A stretch of 64,000 bases of DNA, taken from assembly GCA_016929595.1 (NCBI GenBank), contig JAFGIN010000079.1:1-64000 (forward strand), read 5' to 3'. Of the stretch, positions 35,350 to 42,097 are shown in pieces. The notes under the pieces were generated by a model. It worked only from the letters and a program-made list of their open reading frames with translations, was not told where the DNA came from and did no database searches. A program made the translations under genes and the position numbers. Each line of letters starts with the position of its first letter. Within the stretch, counting starts at the first letter, position 1. This DNA comes from Chitinispirillaceae bacterium. Lineage in GTDB: Bacteria > Fibrobacterota > Chitinivibrionia > Chitinivibrionales > Chitinispirillaceae.

Positions 35350-36114
35350 TTATTGTAACAAATATTTTTTAAGAGTGTACGTCGTAATAAGTTTCCCATT
35401 CCTGTACTTCAAATACCCAAGACAACCAATAGCTGGATGATAGTAGTAGTAGGTCTCTGTCGATGCATCACTTTCCTTATACAGATAGCATGAATCCCTG
35501 AAATAAACCGGTGATGCGCCATGCCTGTTTTCAATTGGTGCATAAAATTTTGTTGCAGTCTCCATTACCTGCATTACTAGAGTTTCTGATGAATCCCTCC
35601 CTGGTAATGCGACCTGATACACAGTACCTTTTGTTGATGGATACGAAAGCCATAATACAGCATCTTCGTAAAGTACTTTATTTTGATGAGCATATTCACC
35701 AACAATGTATAATCCCCGTTTGTTGAGATCACCGCTTCCAATATGCATCAGAAGCAACCCGCTGTCAAGATTTTCCCATTCATATTTGTACACATACTGA
35801 TATGATTTTTGACTATAGGATGAACTATTTCTGAAATTTTCTGGTGAAATGAGTGTATCATCATTAAAAAGCAGATACCCCCCGGGAATGCTCCTGAACA
35901 ATGTCCTGTCACTTAATTGAATTTTTATCCCATTGGTATCATACCATGTACTCCAGTATTCCCAGTGATTTCCAATGATTAGTGGACAAATACTTTCAGT
36001 CGATGGCAGCGGTGGATCATCGATACCACATAGAGCATCACCGGGAGAATTTAATGAGCAACCAATCAAAAAATATGATCCCAATAAAATTACGTATACT
36101 ACAAGTCTTCTCAT
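35350..36114 (-). CDS. Lipoprotein of unknown function, last gene of the caspase operon
   Basis: A 254-residue protein with a clear lipoprotein leader (lipobox LIGC, residues ~16-19) and no further membrane helix. The mature part is rich in aromatic strands ('CPLIIGNHWEYWSTWYDTNG', 'YYYYHPAIGCLGYLKYRNG'), a layout common in exported Fibrobacterota lipoproteins. No enzymatic motif is seen. Its start overlaps the stop of the caspase gene by 4 nt (ATGA), so it is translated from the same message and probably works at the envelope with the caspase-barrel protein. Confidence 0.75.
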   Translation of the reverse strand: MRRLVVYVILLGSYFLIGCSLNSPGDALCGIDDPPLPSTESICPLIIGNHWEYWSTWYDTNGIKIQLSDRTLFRSIPGGYLLFNDDTLISPENFRNSSSYSQKSYQYVYKYEWENLDSGLLLMHIGSGDLNKRGLYIVGEYAHQNKVLYEDAVLWLSYPSTKGTVYQVALPGRDSSETLVMQVMETATKFYAPIENRHGASPVYFRDSCYLYKESDASTETYYYYHPAIGCLGYLKYRNGKLITTYTLKKYLLQ

Positions 36115-37877
36115 CCCTTTACCTCCTTCAGTCTCAATGTAAACAGAAGGTTAATATGAAACTCAATACCTCTTAATTTAAATCTGAAATCTTCATCATC
36201 AATGGATTCCTGATCTTCTGGTGTATTGAATTGTGGCAGTGTCATACCATAATAGAAACGCTCTGGTTTTTTCTGATATCGGAAACGTGTCTGAGCACCC
36301 AAGACAATAAACGGCGTAAGCTGATACATATAAGCCAATGCCGCATATGGTAAAATCTTCACCCCTTCATCTTTTAATTTTTTCTTTTCCACTATATCAA
36401 AAAGGGTATCGGTAAAATCTGTGGTAATATGATAGTTTCCGCGAATAAATGATACTCCGGCAGTCCCGGATACTCCCCGCAAAATACCTCTGGAGATCCT
36501 GTATCCAGTTCCAATGTCAAACGTAGAAAGTTCAAGAGACCTCTTCAATATGAGTGATACACCATTGTTGTTTGTATTATCAATCAGAGAATTTCTTCCA
36601 GCATGCGACTGATCCTCTTCCCATTTTGATTTTTCATAGGACAGATTAACGAGATACTGCCCCCGCAATACTAATTCTCCCATTACCCCTGCGGAAAAGG
36701 CTTCATAGGGAAAATTAAATGTCGGATTCATACCAAACATTCGGTATCCATCAAATCGCTTCATCATCTGTTGGTTGAGGTCCTTCATTACCATCCTCCG
36801 GACCCCTCCTGAAAATCCGAAATTCAAACTCGTATAACGCGAACCACTCCCTTTTTTTCTTGACTTCTGTCCCTTTGTCAGCATAAAATCGTTCTCTCCA
36901 ACCTGGACCGTTGACGATCCAACCTTTACTCCAGATTTCCACATTTTCCCATTTTCATTCCTGAAAACGCTGTATGTACCCGGGTCAAGTGCTATCATAA
37001 TCGTTGCCTGCCGCTCTTTGTCAAGATCCGCAACAACATTTGCCCTCTCATCCTGAATAGTAATTGCTCCACTCAACCCGCTTTGGAGTAAAATTCCCTG
37101 AGACCTGATATTGAGATCAGCAAGAACAATATCGCCTTCACCCTGAATCTGGAACTGATAACCCGGATGCTGTGTTCCTCCCCACGATGATGCCGTTGAA
37201 GAAACGGTGCGGTTATATGAATACTGGTATGCTTCAGCAAGGGTTACTTTACGGTCACCTGACATATCAGCACTTCCCCGCAAGGCATTAACAAAATGAA
37301 ATGTAAATACTGAGTTTTTTAACCTGTCAGATTCCTGTGCATTTTCCGTAGCAGAGGATGAACTCAATATCACCTGTCCCTTTATTTTACTATCCTCTTT
37401 GAACAAAAACGGTTCAGACAAGGCACCACCTTTAAGACGGGTAAAACTACCACTCTGACACGCATCAAAAACTCCTATTCGAATCGATACCGGAAACGCC
37501 GAAAAACTGTCTTTTAGCGACTGAAGCGGATATCGTCCGGCACCCATCTTCAGATTACTCTGATCTGCATGTCCGGTGTAGTAGAAAAGCAGCAGATTAT
37601 CTTCACCGGCGGGAAGCTTTGACTTAAGATCTTCAAGAGCTACTTCAAGATCCTGCGGCGATTTATCCTGAAGTAAAAGGATGTGCTGGTTATCGAAACC
37701 ACAGTACTCTTTTAGAATTGTCCAGAGTGACTGAATATCGTTATTAACATACCGCAACTCGCTCACATCACTCCCCCCTCTGCTGTTACCAACAAGCAAC
37801 GCAAATCTTGCAGCATCACCTGATTGTGCAATTACAAGCAAAAAAAAGACTGTTAATAGTAAATATTTTACTCTCAT
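36111..37877 (-). CDS. Exported caspase-like (C14) protease with predicted C-terminal outer-membrane barrel
   Basis: A 588-residue protein with a signal peptide (1-22, ending GDAA). Residues ~23-255 are a caspase/metacaspase-fold domain: catalytic histidine in LLLFYYTGHAD (H103) and catalytic cysteine in IGVFDACQSG (C140). A short PEGA-like strand region follows (~265-340). Residues ~350-588 are strand-rich with alternating aromatic residues and end in strands 'FHINLLFTLRL', consistent with an outer-membrane barrel (inference). The gene overlaps the anti-sigma gene upstream and the lipoprotein downstream by ATGA each. A caspase dyad outside the cytoplasm under an ECF sigma factor is unusual. 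Substrate unknown. Confidence 0.8.
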   Translation of the reverse strand: MRVKYLLLTVFFLLVIAQSGDAARFALLVGNSRGGSDVSELRYVNNDIQSLWTILKEYCGFDNQHILLLQDKSPQDLEVALEDLKSKLPAGEDNLLLFYYTGHADQSNLKMGAGRYPLQSLKDSFSAFPVSIRIGVFDACQSGSFTRLKGGALSEPFLFKEDSKIKGQVILSSSSATENAQESDRLKNSVFTFHFVNALRGSADMSGDRKVTLAEAYQYSYNRTVSSTASSWGGTQHPGYQFQIQGEGDIVLADLNIRSQGILLQSGLSGAITIQDERANVVADLDKERQATIMIALDPGTYSVFRNENGKMWKSGVKVGSSTVQVGENDFMLTKGQKSRKKGSGSRYTSLNFGFSGGVRRMVMKDLNQQMMKRFDGYRMFGMNPTFNFPYEAFSAGVMGELVLRGQYLVNLSYEKSKWEEDQSHAGRNSLIDNTNNNGVSLILKRSLELSTFDIGTGYRISRGILRGVSGTAGVSFIRGNYHITTDFTDTLFDIVEKKKLKDEGVKILPYAALAYMYQLTPFIVLGAQTRFRYQKKPERFYYGMTLPQFNTPEDQESIDDEDFRFKLRGIEFHINLLFTLRLKEVKG

Positions 37878-38620
37878 TGCGCATGCTCCTTCTTCTCTAC
37901 AACGATACTCTGAATGACAGCATTTTCAATATTAAAACGCAAATCTCTCAAACTGCCACTACTGTTAAGTGCTTTTGAAAATTTTGCTGTAATATGGGTG
38001 GCGTGAAGCGGAAACGCCGAAAACACTGCAAGATAAAGCTCCGGACCAAGATACTTATCCAGTGTAATACTGTTTGGTAAAGGAAGATCACGACCTGGCT
38101 CAAGCGCAATCGAACTGTCCCCATCAGAAGGGTAGTACACTGTTATTGATTTATTGCTATCTGCACTAAGCAGCATGAAATAATGCCTTTCCCCACAGGA
38201 ATAGGTGAACTGTATTTTTTCTCCAGGGTAATAAATGCTGTTATCACGCTTTACAGGACTTCCATTCTCATCCTGAACAAACAGGCTGACCTGAGTTGTA
38301 CCTTTTATCCGGTATCCATCAATACTCGTATTTGTATATACCAGGTAAGCGCCTGAAACAACAAGAACTAATGATGCCGCCAGAGCAAGCAAGGGACCAT
38401 GCCTGAAATGGTGTACCCTGCCCGCTGTATGTTCCGGTACCTTTTCCGGTTTTGGGTATTGCTTCAAAAAATTACTTCTTTCCTGCTTAATCTCTTTAAT
38501 CATAGCATCACAAAGTGTACACTCTTTCAGGTGTTCATCTATCGATCTGGCCGTAAATGTATCAAGATCTCCTGCTACAAACGATAGCATTGTCAGTCTG
38601 TCAAATTTGTCGCACCGCAT
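37874..38620 (-). CDS. Anti-sigma factor with zinc-finger N-terminus and DUF4384-like C-terminal domain
   Basis: A 248-residue single-span membrane protein. The N-terminal ~45 residues form a zf-HC2-type anti-sigma domain (IDEHLKECTLCDAM, His/Cys/Cys pattern) that should bind the ECF sigma factor encoded just before. One membrane helix follows (~74-95, LLALAASLVLVVSGAYLVY). The exported C-terminal part (GTTQVSLFVQDENG...YYPGEKIQFTYS...YYPSDGD) looks like DUF4384, a domain often paired with caspase-like proteases. It overlaps the sigma gene through TAATG and the caspase gene through ATGA. It should hold the sigma factor at the membrane until an envelope signal arrives. Confidence 0.82.
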   Translation of the reverse strand: MRCDKFDRLTMLSFVAGDLDTFTARSIDEHLKECTLCDAMIKEIKQERSNFLKQYPKPEKVPEHTAGRVHHFRHGPLLALAASLVLVVSGAYLVYTNTSIDGYRIKGTTQVSLFVQDENGSPVKRDNSIYYPGEKIQFTYSCGERHYFMLLSADSNKSITVYYPSDGDSSIALEPGRDLPLPNSITLDKYLGPELYLAVFSAFPLHATHITAKFSKALNSSGSLRDLRFNIENAVIQSIVVEKKEHAQ

Positions 38621-39108
38621 TATATCCCCAACTCCCTTCTTGCTGACGGCAGAAGATCTCTGAAGCGCTTGAGATTCCGCCGTATTGTCGCCGGTGATTG
38701 ACCGGTAAGCTTTTCAATTGCCCGCTGATCCAGCTCTTCTATATAGGTATAGTGCACCGCATCTCTAACTTTTTTACTGATACGACCCATGATCAATCTC
38801 AGTATCTGTTTCTTCTGAAGCCTCTCCTCAATTTCGTCAACTTCGCCCACCTCATCTGCATCAACAGCCAGCTCAATATTCTTTCTGCTTCGTAACACAT
38901 TGAAACAATGGTTTTGAGCCGTGCGAAAGATCCATGATACTACCTGTGTTTTATCCCGTATCGTATCATATTTATCGATCAACTGCATAAATACCACCTG
39001 CATCGCATCCCGGGCATCCTCTTGAGACCCCAGCATCCGCAAACACCGTCCATGGATCATAAATCCATACTTTTCATATAGTTGCTGTATCTCTTGTTCG
39101 TTTATCAT
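38620..39108 (-). CDS. ECF (group 4) RNA polymerase sigma factor
   Basis: A 162-residue sigma-70 family protein with only regions 2 and 4. Region 2 spans 'LYEKYGFMIHGRCLRMLGSQEDARDAMQVVFMQL' to 'VVSWIFRTAQNHCFNVLRSRK'; region 4 is 'ISKKVRDAVHYTYIEELDQRAIEKLTGQSPATIRRNLKR', a helix-turn-helix for the -35 element. It heads a four-gene unit and is followed by its likely anti-sigma factor through a TAATG overlap. Upstream sequence includes TGTAACG (on the minus strand near 39133), which could be an ECF-type -35 box, but I could not confirm a full promoter. Confidence 0.92.
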   Translation of the reverse strand: MINEQEIQQLYEKYGFMIHGRCLRMLGSQEDARDAMQVVFMQLIDKYDTIRDKTQVVSWIFRTAQNHCFNVLRSRKNIELAVDADEVGEVDEIEERLQKKQILRLIMGRISKKVRDAVHYTYIEELDQRAIEKLTGQSPATIRRNLKRFRDLLPSARRELGI

Positions 39109-39339
39109 AGTCTGTTCAGTTATTAAGACACACGTTACAATGTCGATCGCTCATATTTTTTTTCTTTAAAATAAAACCCTGCTATGCGTCTTTTTGAAAT
39201 TGTTTGAAATATGTTTTTTTGTGGACCGGCGGGCGAACGAGCGTGAGCTTAACAGATATTGCATCATCCATCCACTCTTAGAGGTCTTTAAGTGAATCCC
39301 TGACATAGTAAATACGCGATAAAAATGTCGAAATGTACT

Positions 39340-40608
39340 TTATTTTATTAAATACGATATGCGCCTTGATCGTTTATTAATTACCGCTTTTATCCGCCCT
39401 ATCACTGGTTGATCTCCATACATTTCCCGGAATTTTCCAGATACGGATTCTATTCGTTCCGGCCATACAGATATCATAGTGCGGATCATATTCTGTAAGA
39501 ATGAATACCGGACACCAATCGCCTCTGCCATATCTTTCCAGTACTTTTCAGTCAATTGCCCTGTATCGAAGCACCCTCCAACAGACATGGCGATTCTCAA
39601 GTCAAGCCTGGGATATATCGCGGTACACACCAGATCATAAAATGGCGCAAGTGTTTTTGAGTTTTTGTCTCTATATACCAAAGAGAGGTTTTTAGCATGT
39701 CCATCAGCATTACCAACAAGTACATTGAAAATATGCCAACGGATTAACGCTTCAGTATCTGTAAGCGGATTGTCAGCTACTTCGGTAGCAAGTGAAAAGC
39801 AGTCACTAAATGAAGGACCACCTTCAATCTCGTACTTTCTCTGAGATGAGAAACCCAGTGCTTGACAAAAATCTTCCTGATGAATCCGTTTGATTATACC
39901 ATCATTTTCCGGGAGACGATCATATCGTCTTACCTTACAAACGCGGATATTACCTATTGAAATCAATTCAGCTGAAACGACAGGTAGACCCATTTCATTT
40001 GCAAACCATGTTGTAAAAACTTCATTTTCAGGAAGATATTTAAAATCGCGATTAGGAAATTTTAGTATATGTGAACTTGGAGAATTTCCAACAGGTATAT
40101 ATATCTTTCCATTTTTACACAGGACCGGCAGTTTGTCCTGTGCACCGGCAAGTGACAACCTGATTGGGCCATCATGTGCAAATACAGGATAAACAAGCCC
40201 TGTATGTTCAAGGTTTGCAAGTTCATCCGTTGATATCTCACGGTATCCACTTTTCTCTAACTCCGCTTCACCCCAGTCAATCGGAACGATTGCCAGCGCA
40301 CCGGCACATTCGCCCCCTATTGCTTTAAGCAACTCAAAATCATTTTCTTCTGATATCCCTAATCGTCTGCAAACGAGATAGCGAAGTCTGCCTTCAGGAA
40401 GCAGATTTGCAAAAAAACGTTGTACAAACTCATGTGAATTAGTTCCAGGACACATTGGTATCGTTCGGGATATTGGCCATGAGTCAGTGTCGATCAGCCA
40501 CTCATCGGAATAAGAAAAAGCCAACCGTCCATTTTCCAGAAGATAGATAGTTCCTACATGACGATTATAGTAAAGGACTTTCAGTAGATGATCGCTATCA
40601 GGTATCAT
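39340..40608 (-). CDS. hipA: HipA-type serine/threonine kinase toxin
   Basis: A full-length 422-residue HipA. The N-terminal couple_hipA-like domain ('SRTIPMC', 'FFANLLPEGRLR', 'LLKAIGGECAGALAI') is followed by the kinase core: the flexible loop serine in RLSLAGAQDK (S152), ATP-site 'SSHILKFP', catalytic VGNADGHAKNLS (D302) and metal-binding APFYDL (D325). The E. coli relative phosphorylates a glutamyl-tRNA synthetase and causes growth arrest; the target here is inferred. All key residues are present, so it looks active. The ATG overlaps the hipB stop by 4 nt. Confidence 0.93.
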   Translation of the reverse strand: MIPDSDHLLKVLYYNRHVGTIYLLENGRLAFSYSDEWLIDTDSWPISRTIPMCPGTNSHEFVQRFFANLLPEGRLRYLVCRRLGISEENDFELLKAIGGECAGALAIVPIDWGEAELEKSGYREISTDELANLEHTGLVYPVFAHDGPIRLSLAGAQDKLPVLCKNGKIYIPVGNSPSSHILKFPNRDFKYLPENEVFTTWFANEMGLPVVSAELISIGNIRVCKVRRYDRLPENDGIIKRIHQEDFCQALGFSSQRKYEIEGGPSFSDCFSLATEVADNPLTDTEALIRWHIFNVLVGNADGHAKNLSLVYRDKNSKTLAPFYDLVCTAIYPRLDLRIAMSVGGCFDTGQLTEKYWKDMAEAIGVRYSFLQNMIRTMISVWPERIESVSGKFREMYGDQPVIGRIKAVINKRSRRISYLIK

Positions 40609-40871
40609 CTTTTCCCCATAATCTTTTCACAAATTGAACCACGAGGCATAATACTCACATCAAGTCCTAACCGTTTTAATACCTGTAATGCTTTTCCTAA
40701 TTCAACAGTGGACTTTCCCCGCTCCAGTTCAGAAAGAAACCGCTCACCAACACCTGACATCCCCGCAACAACCGCCTGCGTTGATCTAATCTCCTTTCGT
40801 CTGAATCTTATTATCCTACCCACATCTTCTGCTGTTAAAATTTTCCCGTACGGGACTATTGGTGTACTCAT
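40605..40871 (-). CDS. hipB: HipB-type Xre-family antitoxin and autorepressor
   Basis: An 88-residue DNA-binding protein with an Xre helix-turn-helix (VGRIIRFRRKEIRSTQAVVAGMSGV..RFLSELERGK) and a short C-terminal strand (GLDVSIMPRG), matching HipB dimers. It should neutralise HipA and repress its own operon. GGAGGT lies 5 nt before the ATG. Three palindromes related to CCGTACGG sit within and upstream of the first codons (40844-40954) and are the likely operators. Confidence 0.92.
   Translation of the reverse strand: MSTPIVPYGKILTAEDVGRIIRFRRKEIRSTQAVVAGMSGVGERFLSELERGKSTVELGKALQVLKRLGLDVSIMPRGSICEKIMGKR
40844..40855. promoter_or_regulatory. Putative HipB operator O1 (inside hipB)
   Basis: Perfect 12-bp palindrome TCCCGTACGGGA within the first codons of hipB, 49 bp from the next site. 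Its position inside the coding start suits autorepression. Confidence 0.65.
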
Positions 40872-41152: not shown

Positions 41153-42097
41153 CTATTTCACAACGGTTTTCCTGACTTCCCAGGCACACCCAAGTCTTCT
41201 GGTTTGAATATACCCTCTTTTTTCAGCATCCAGAGCAAGCCGTAAAAAACGTGGGTATCCATATTTTCTGTAATCAAAATTATTCGCAAGGCTGCTTAAA
41301 TTATACCATTCATCACTATTGGGTATTTTTGTCACAAGTAATCCAAACACTTCAGGAACGACCAGATTACCAGTGTCCTCAAGGGTAAGTATTCTTCGAT
41401 TTTCATCTAAAAACTTTACATTCGAATTTTTCATCGCATCAGCAATAAAATCATTCCAGGCTTTATATCCAAGTTTTTTTTCATCAAATCTGAAGTTTAA
41501 TAATTTCATTTTTATTTTAACAGATCCGGACTCAGGTTTTTTCTTTTCTGCAAGCATAATATTTACTGCTTCACTGAATAACTGAAACGCCTGCTCCTTG
41601 GTCACCGTATTCTGATCTGAATGAGAATCAACTCCCACATGTTCATTAACATCTTCGGAATCGATCATCTCTCTGTAATCAGTATACCTGTCTGCCATCT
41701 TCAGCAATTCCTCTGATGCGTTATTCTTAACATCACATACAATCCAGGTCCTTTTCCCATATTTTCTTAAAGATAAAATGAATGGTCGAAAATCTGCATC
41801 TCCGGAAATCAGAACAAAATGATCAATATGCGGGTAAAGAAATATCAGTTCTACACCACGTGTTACCAGTGTGATATCAGCACTGTTTTTTTTTGATTTA
41901 GGTATATGTATAAGCTCGAAATTAAATCTGGATAATTCAGATGCAATACTTCGTATTGAATCTTTGTTCCAATCCCCGAATGCCATCGCATACGAGATTT
42001 TCCCTTCCTCAGATATTCTATCAATTAAAGAAGCGATATCATCGGTGCCGGTGGGCGGGATAACATTTTCAATGTCCCATAAAATTGCAATACTCAT
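41153..42097 (-). CDS. NYN-domain RNase-like protein with C-terminal OST-HTH/LOTUS domains
   Basis: A 314-residue cytoplasmic protein. Residues 1-140 form a NYN (PIN-like) nuclease domain with acidic residues in AILWDIEN (D8), SADITL (D74) and ISGDADF (D100, D102), the expected metal-binding set. The C-terminal ~150 residues hold two LOTUS-like winged helices ('SGSVKIKMKLLNFRFDEKKLGYKAWNDFI', 'YNLSSLANNFDYRKYGYPRFLRL'), which bind RNA in related proteins. Bacterial NYN-LOTUS proteins are known but their targets are mostly unknown. It lies upstream of hipBA on the same strand with about 280 nt between, so a shared role in RNA-based stress is only suggestive. Confidence 0.82.
   Translation of the reverse strand: MSIAILWDIENVIPPTGTDDIASLIDRISEEGKISYAMAFGDWNKDSIRSIASELSRFNFELIHIPKSKKNSADITLVTRGVELIFLYPHIDHFVLISGDADFRPFILSLRKYGKRTWIVCDVKNNASEELLKMADRYTDYREMIDSEDVNEHVGVDSHSDQNTVTKEQAFQLFSEAVNIMLAEKKKPESGSVKIKMKLLNFRFDEKKLGYKAWNDFIADAMKNSNVKFLDENRRILTLEDTGNLVVPEVFGLLVTKIPNSDEWYNLSSLANNFDYRKYGYPRFLRLALDAEKRGYIQTRRLGCAWEVRKTVVK

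Follow-up and report, generated by a model that had tools for sequence, protein, structure and literature searches.

A conserved operon of an ECF sigma factor, a membrane anti-sigma factor and an exported caspase, and its possible role in proteolytic signaling across the bacterial envelope

Organization of the operon and domain anatomy of its proteins

The window analyzed in this study is the first 64,000 nucleotides of contig JAFGIN010000079.1 from a Chitinispirillaceae bacterium of the phylum Fibrobacterota (assembly GCA_016929595.1). On its minus strand lie four open reading frames (ORFs) that encode, in order, an extracytoplasmic function (ECF) sigma factor, a membrane anti-sigma factor, an exported caspase with a C-terminal barrel and a lipoprotein (Table 1). 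A preliminary description, made from the sequence alone, proposed that these genes form one operon. This was confirmed, as the ORFs overlap by 1–4 bases and their junctions are TAATG, ATGA and ATGA, respectively. Described here are the conservation of this operon and the sites at which its caspase may cleave.

The caspase matched Peptidase_C14 with 47.9 bits against a cut-off of 21.4, and all 32 aligned relatives matched it as well. The best Foldseek matches of the protease part were the MALT1 paracaspase, caspases and metacaspases. The catalytic dyad of H103 and C140 was invariant in the aligned relatives, and proteolytic activity is predicted for this protein. D47 and D138 were also invariant and were equivalent to the S1 aspartates of metacaspases. 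In metacaspases, the aspartates of the S1 pocket confer specificity for Lys/Arg at P1 (PMC4357240; PMC6426788).

The AlphaFold2 model of the caspase had a predicted local distance difference test (pLDDT) score of 82.7. Its confidence collapsed over loop 142–163, which follows the catalytic Cys, and a low-confidence linker at residues 337–346 preceded eight strands spanning residues 349–583, whose Foldseek matches included OmpA and Ail. Eight-stranded barrels have both ends in the periplasm, and the caspase domain is therefore placed in the periplasm by default topology. The protein thus appears, from its model, to be anchored in the outer membrane via the barrel. Together with the signal peptide visible in the sequence, these features bear out, as a prediction, the earlier proposal of a barrel-anchored caspase dyad outside the cytoplasm.

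The sigma factor contains regions 2 and 4 only, the composition of an ECF sigma factor, with the score of region 4 slightly below the cut-off in the profile scan. The AlphaFold2 model of the anti-sigma factor had a mean pLDDT of 90 and comprised a helical N-terminal domain, a membrane helix, a linker of low confidence and, starting at residue 110, a beta domain. An HxxxCxxC motif lies in the N-terminal domain (helices over residues 8–54) and is followed by the single transmembrane helix (residues 75–99), as in zinc-binding anti-sigma (ZAS) factors. Among 42 anti-sigma relatives, zf-HC2 was matched in 15 and DUF4384 in 23 at E ≤ 0.01. The DUF4384 score of the anti-sigma factor itself was 25.3 bits by hmmscan, where the cut-off is 27, and 27.8 bits in the genome scan. 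Foldseek with the whole anti-sigma factor returned nothing under E = 0.001, with only weak matches to Ig-like beta domains. Thus, the zinc finger and the DUF4384-like outer domain noted previously were recovered, the former as a weak match and the latter as a distant one; the beta domain is probably a divergent member of DUF4384. It was also proposed that this domain had been split off from the caspase. This was not demonstrated, as other proteins here contain DUF4384 too and the domain of the anti-sigma factor is divergent.

Distribution and subtypes of the operon

To describe its distribution, 80 loci were gathered from species genomes by caspase similarity alone with an alignment-based scan; some of the incomplete loci stop at a contig end. 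Among these best 80 caspase relatives, the anti-sigma gene was adjacent in 71 and the full ordered triple of sigma, anti-sigma and caspase genes was present in 66. By their record titles, the 80 loci span Fibrobacterota, Acidobacteriota, Myxococcota, Spirochaetota, Gemmatimonadota, Gammaproteobacteria, a Pseudobacteriovorax genome and Eisenbacteria. In the organism's own family, a caspase relative was found in 19 of 24 genomes, and the three genes were consecutive in most of the loci examined. Across the phylum, this anti-sigma gene lay immediately upstream on the same strand in 112 of the 150 Peptidase_C14 matches listed. The core gene order is therefore a widespread module of about eight phyla and is not an arrangement peculiar to this genome or its phylum; conservation of the order in related genomes had been named beforehand as a test, together with the barrel and the caspase fold, and all three were found. 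Moreover, the pairwise distances of the three proteins correlated at 0.86–0.91, values that none of 500 permutations reached. Thus, the three proteins are largely co-inherited.

The loci were assigned to four subtypes, A to D, whose names are those of this study. Type A, to which the locus in the window belongs, adds the lipoprotein gene, which was limited to this subtype. The lipoprotein is accordingly a fourth member of the operon here, as first described, but only in one subtype. It had no Pfam match in the profile scan, and no conserved Lys-Gly that would mark it as a further substrate was seen. In one type-A relative (L034, 701–2269, minus strand), a gene for a von Willebrand/YfbK-type exported protein follows the lipoprotein gene.

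In type B, the core genes are followed by those for a small barrel, for a lipoprotein of the LpoB family (134.9 bits) and for other exported proteins. This genome also has a type-B paralogous locus (L042, 1316–5723, minus strand) with these downstream genes. Its small barrel is similar to the caspase profile over the barrel region, and a sigma-type site precedes the last gene of that locus. The caspase is longer in type C, which was found in Fibrobacter and in small genomes of the family; the anti-sigma factor of these small genomes lacks the zinc cysteines. In the long type-C caspases L052, L060 and L062, tandem G-x-VNIA-type repeats separate the protease from the C-terminal part. Finally, type D is divergent, with the gene order kept in the loci read.

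Lys/Arg-Gly sites shared by the caspase and the anti-sigma factor

Three low-confidence segments, two in the caspase and one in the anti-sigma factor, each contain a near-invariant [Lys/Arg]-Gly. Judging from the models, these segments are probably disordered. The sites in the window are RLKG (site a), RKKG (site b) and RIKG (site c), all of the form R-x-K-G.

Of 100 distinct caspases, 99 had site a, as [K/R]G[G/A], at exactly +9 from the catalytic Cys; the remaining one was the only caspase of the set outside the operon. The site was absent from all seven readable non-operon caspases. In caspase-3, maturation occurs through a cut in the loop equivalent to that of site a. Site b, as [K/R]G, was found in all 98 caspases that extend that far, and it was present in type D as well. 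In two genomes of one genus (L046 and L048), the type-B caspase ends 6–7 residues past the Arg of site b, and the barrel has its own gene downstream. At site c, K106 and G107 were invariant in all 42 aligned anti-sigma factors and R104 was present in 86% of them. DUF4384 proteins outside the operon had no Lys-Gly ahead of their first strand, where site c would lie. Given the motif that the sites share, its absence outside the operon, the split of caspase and barrel in L046 and L048 and the invariance of D47 and D138, comparison of the sequences suggests that the three sites are substrates of the caspase itself.

Several observations accompany these sites. In termite-gut relatives (loci L168, L170, L173 and L200), the sigma/anti-sigma pair and the caspase are on different contigs, and both retain the [K/R]-G sites. 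A third caspase of this genome (L054, 80–2357, minus strand) is without the [K/R]GG loop and adjoins an exported DUF4384 protein; no sigma or anti-sigma gene was detected on that short contig. Coevolution of the P2 residues of caspase and anti-sigma factor was also assessed. Its overall p was 0.013, but one clade drives the signal (p = 0.28 without it), and it was not used as support.

Table 1. Features of the operon in the window (positions of the window; all on the minus strand)
Feature	Positions	Strand	Basis or remark
Predicted sigma-dependent promoter, TGAGCGA-N15-GTGTC	39127–39153	-	19–45 bases ahead of the sigma start codon
ECF sigma factor, 162 aa	38620–39108	-	TIGR02937, 75.2 bits, above cut-off; Sigma70_r2, 42.6 bits
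Membrane anti-sigma factor, 248 aa	37874–38620	-	Profile scan, alignment, AlphaFold model
Zinc-binding motif H30-x3-C34-x2-C37	38510–38533	-	Sequence; weak zf-HC2, 14 bits
Transmembrane helix, anti-sigma residues 75–99	38324–38398	-	AlphaFold model; hydropathy
Site c, R104-I105-K106-G107, predicted site-1 cut K106/G107	38300–38311	-	Anti-sigma linker outside the membrane; pLDDT <50 over 99–105
Periplasmic beta domain, DUF4384-like, anti-sigma residues 110–243	37892–38293	-	Profile scan, AlphaFold model
Exported caspase with C-terminal barrel, 588 aa	36111–37877	-	Profile scan, AlphaFold, Foldseek
Signal peptide, caspase residues ~1–23	37809–37877	-	Sequence; N-terminal helix in model
Caspase domain, residues 24–245	37143–37808	-	H103 at 37569–37571; C140 at 37458–37460
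Site a, R147-L148-K149-G150-G151, predicted maturation cut K149/G150	37425–37439	-	pLDDT <50 over 142–163
All-beta, sandwich-like domain, caspase residues ~250–335	36873–37130	-	AlphaFold model
Site b, R340-K341-K342-G343, predicted release cut K342/G343	36849–36860	-	Between protease module and barrel; pLDDT <50 over 337–346
Eight-stranded outer-membrane barrel, caspase residues 349–583	36129–36833	-	AlphaFold strands; Foldseek OmpA, Ail
Lipoprotein, 254 aa	35350–36114	-	Invariant lipobox Cys; homologues in type-A loci

Predicted promoter of the operon

A two-part motif at fixed spacing was found upstream of the sigma genes across loci. For type A, the strict pattern TGAGCGA-N15-GTGTC was present in 7 of 89 loci, where 0.00 were expected from shuffles; these seven include some genomes sampled twice. 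For type B, TGAGC...CGTC was present in 16 loci, where 0.76 were expected, and in some type-B loci a second copy of the motif precedes the downstream barrel gene. In Fibrobacter and several others, GTAACAC...GGTGTT was recognized by eye before the sigma genes.

With a longer promoter pattern, the site in the window was the sole exact copy in its own genome. The sigma factor of type A may thus mainly serve its own operon, as far as the promoter pattern indicates. A regulon search of the same genome yielded, beyond the operon, two sites with one mismatch, which was equal to the control with the reversed pattern, and no other target is claimed.

Proposed mechanism

The conserved operon order, the domain anatomy, the dyad, the acidic S1 positions, the shared sites and the promoter were all computed, and from these we infer every cleavage, the order of the cuts, the signal and the role of the site-2 protease (S2P) that are proposed below. 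The anti-sigma factor, with its beta domain in the periplasm, would keep the sigma factor at the inner membrane, and the exported caspase would be a zymogen tethered to the outer membrane via its C-terminal barrel and facing the periplasm. Upon an envelope cue, the caspase would mature by cutting itself at K149/G150 and would be released from the barrel by a second self-cut at K342/G343. Such self-release would solve a problem of geometry, that of a protease in the outer membrane reaching a target in the inner membrane. The soluble caspase would then cut the anti-sigma factor at K106/G107, a few residues outside the membrane, after which an S2P would complete the breakdown and free the sigma factor. 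Finally, the freed sigma factor would drive its own operon from TGAGCGA-N15-GTGTC, closing a positive loop.

The operon is thus probably a self-contained envelope module in which the caspase serves as the dedicated site-1 protease of the anti-sigma factor. The fuller proposal, a proteolytic relay across the envelope in at least seven phyla, with the self-released caspase as a periplasmic messenger that fires the anti-sigma factor at the same kind of site, has in our estimate an even chance of being correct. The preliminary description had envisaged that the protease could act on its regulator and so give a self-amplifying envelope-stress or cell-fate switch. Because the [K/R]-G sites are shared, the action on the regulator gains independent support, and the conserved promoter before the sigma gene supports positive feedback. 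That description is supported in part, and the cell-fate role in it is hypothetical.

Several points weigh against the proposed mechanism. The residue preceding the Lys/Arg does not covary between the partners outside one clade, and conservation of the Lys-Gly could have a different cause, for instance a structural turn. The operon caspases may form one clade, in which case operon membership and site a would not represent many independent events. In addition, the alignments behind the AlphaFold models were shallow, with 32 and 42 rows. An S2P-type protease is available in this genome, where Peptidase_M50 was matched at three places (best 224.6 bits), but all 14 control genomes were positive too; with S2P genes so close to universal, finding them carries little weight.

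Alternatively, the caspase may be an output of the system: the sigma factor would control the caspase and the lipoprotein, the anti-sigma factor would be relieved by direct binding or by a different protease, and the caspase would process other envelope proteins. Its gene sits in the sigma operon and is hence predicted to be under sigma control, in line with such a role. This would, however, leave unexplained both the near-invariant [K/R]-G that the anti-sigma linker shares with two places in the caspase and the tight pairing of the caspase with the anti-sigma factor, and we regard it as improbable.

Somewhat less probable still is non-proteolytic signaling of the FecA/FecR type, in which the barrel protein would touch the anti-sigma factor with its periplasmic part and alter the state of that factor, and the caspase fold would be mainly a binding module. 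Similar to FecI-FecR-FecA (PMC9249621), the genes here are ordered as sigma factor, anti-sigma factor and an outer-membrane barrel whose N-terminal domain is periplasmic. Different from FecIRA, however, a caspase takes the place of the TonB-dependent receptor, there is no STN domain and the barrel is a small one of eight strands (PMC9249621); only Peptidase_C14 was matched on the barrel protein. Moreover, an invariant dyad and invariant S1 aspartates would be needless for a mere binding module.

The order of an N-terminal protease, a cut-site and a C-terminal barrel would also suit a surface or secreted protease that is freed at site b, leaves the cell and acts outside, with the sigma pair setting only its amount. 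OmpA-like eight-stranded barrels, however, are normally too narrow for the export of a folded domain, no autotransporter-type barrel family was matched in the profile search, and site c would be left unexplained, which makes this quite unlikely. A phage defence or programmed cell-death system is very improbable: caspase homologues do figure in systems proposed for immunity and death in bacteria, some of them with ECF sigma genes close by (PMC8195603), but PADLOC gave only one weak match of 12.7 bits and no credible defence match, the correlated distances suit three proteins that were long inherited together and not a patchy defence island, and the protein is exported and membrane-anchored.

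If the caspase is indeed the site-1 protease of its anti-sigma factor, it would represent a new type of such protease, and its release a new route from the outer to the inner membrane by which the state of the envelope is reported to gene expression. It would also give bacterial caspases a dedicated and ancient role in transcription, separate from cell death or CRISPR. For the widespread caspase family described here, there are now a candidate substrate and a predicted cut-site, together with a promoter and a signaling logic.

Comparison with known systems

A precedent for the proposed logic is Craspase, whose caspase-like protease cleaves the inhibitor of a sigma factor (PMC10028731). Similar to the Craspase/CASP system (Cas7-11-Csx29, Csx30 and CASP-sigma), the proposed module combines a caspase-like protease, a sigma inhibitor cut in a flexible loop and an ECF sigma factor relieved by the cut; in both, the components are encoded together and positive autoregulation is proposed (PMC10028731). 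Different from the caspase here, the Craspase protease is of the CHAT type, is activated by CRISPR RNA and belongs to another protein family, and no membrane anchor, barrel or DUF4384 is described for that system (PMC10028731). The operon proteins gave no CHAT or Cas match, such as a CHAT/TPR protease bound to a Cas7-11 effector would give, and the neighboring genes scanned were the hipBA-like, NYN and sugar-nucleotide genes described below. CalpL/CalpT/CalpS follows the same logic of sigma release through another protease. CalpL is described as a SAVED-Lon protease switched on by a CRISPR second messenger and is neither an envelope protein nor a caspase (PMC11229360).

Similar to the sigma-E/RseA/DegS/RseP pathway, a single-pass anti-sigma factor with a periplasmic domain would be cut first near the membrane and then by an S2P. 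DegS, however, is an inner-membrane PDZ serine protease, whereas the predicted site-1 protease here is an operon-encoded caspase tethered to the outer membrane. With orthocaspases and metacaspases (PMC6426788), the caspase shares the C14 fold, the His/Cys dyad and the acidic S1 positions for a basic P1, but it has its own [K/R]GG nine residues past the Cys; no sigma/anti-sigma operon or barrel anchor was found described for them. Similar to ECF54 systems, for which proteolytic regulation was proposed, a caspase-related protease is encoded near an ECF sigma factor; these systems are reviewed as having CHAT, carboxypeptidase or subtilase neighbors, with regulation proposed to do without an anti-sigma factor (PMC8999054), while a conserved membrane anti-sigma factor is present here.

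Thus, none of Craspase, CalpL/T/S, DegS/RseA and FecIRA joins an envelope caspase to a membrane anti-sigma factor. No description of the sigma/anti-sigma/caspase module was found in a literature search that most subscription papers lay beyond.

Genes surrounding the operon

Directly upstream of the operon is an overlapping pair of the hipBA type (39340–40871, minus strand), consisting of a hipA-like gene and a small helix-turn-helix gene, and sugar-nucleotide genes lie downstream on the same strand. These same-strand neighbors look unrelated to the operon. An NYN-domain protein with a weak OST-HTH match is encoded at 41153–42097, also on the minus strand.

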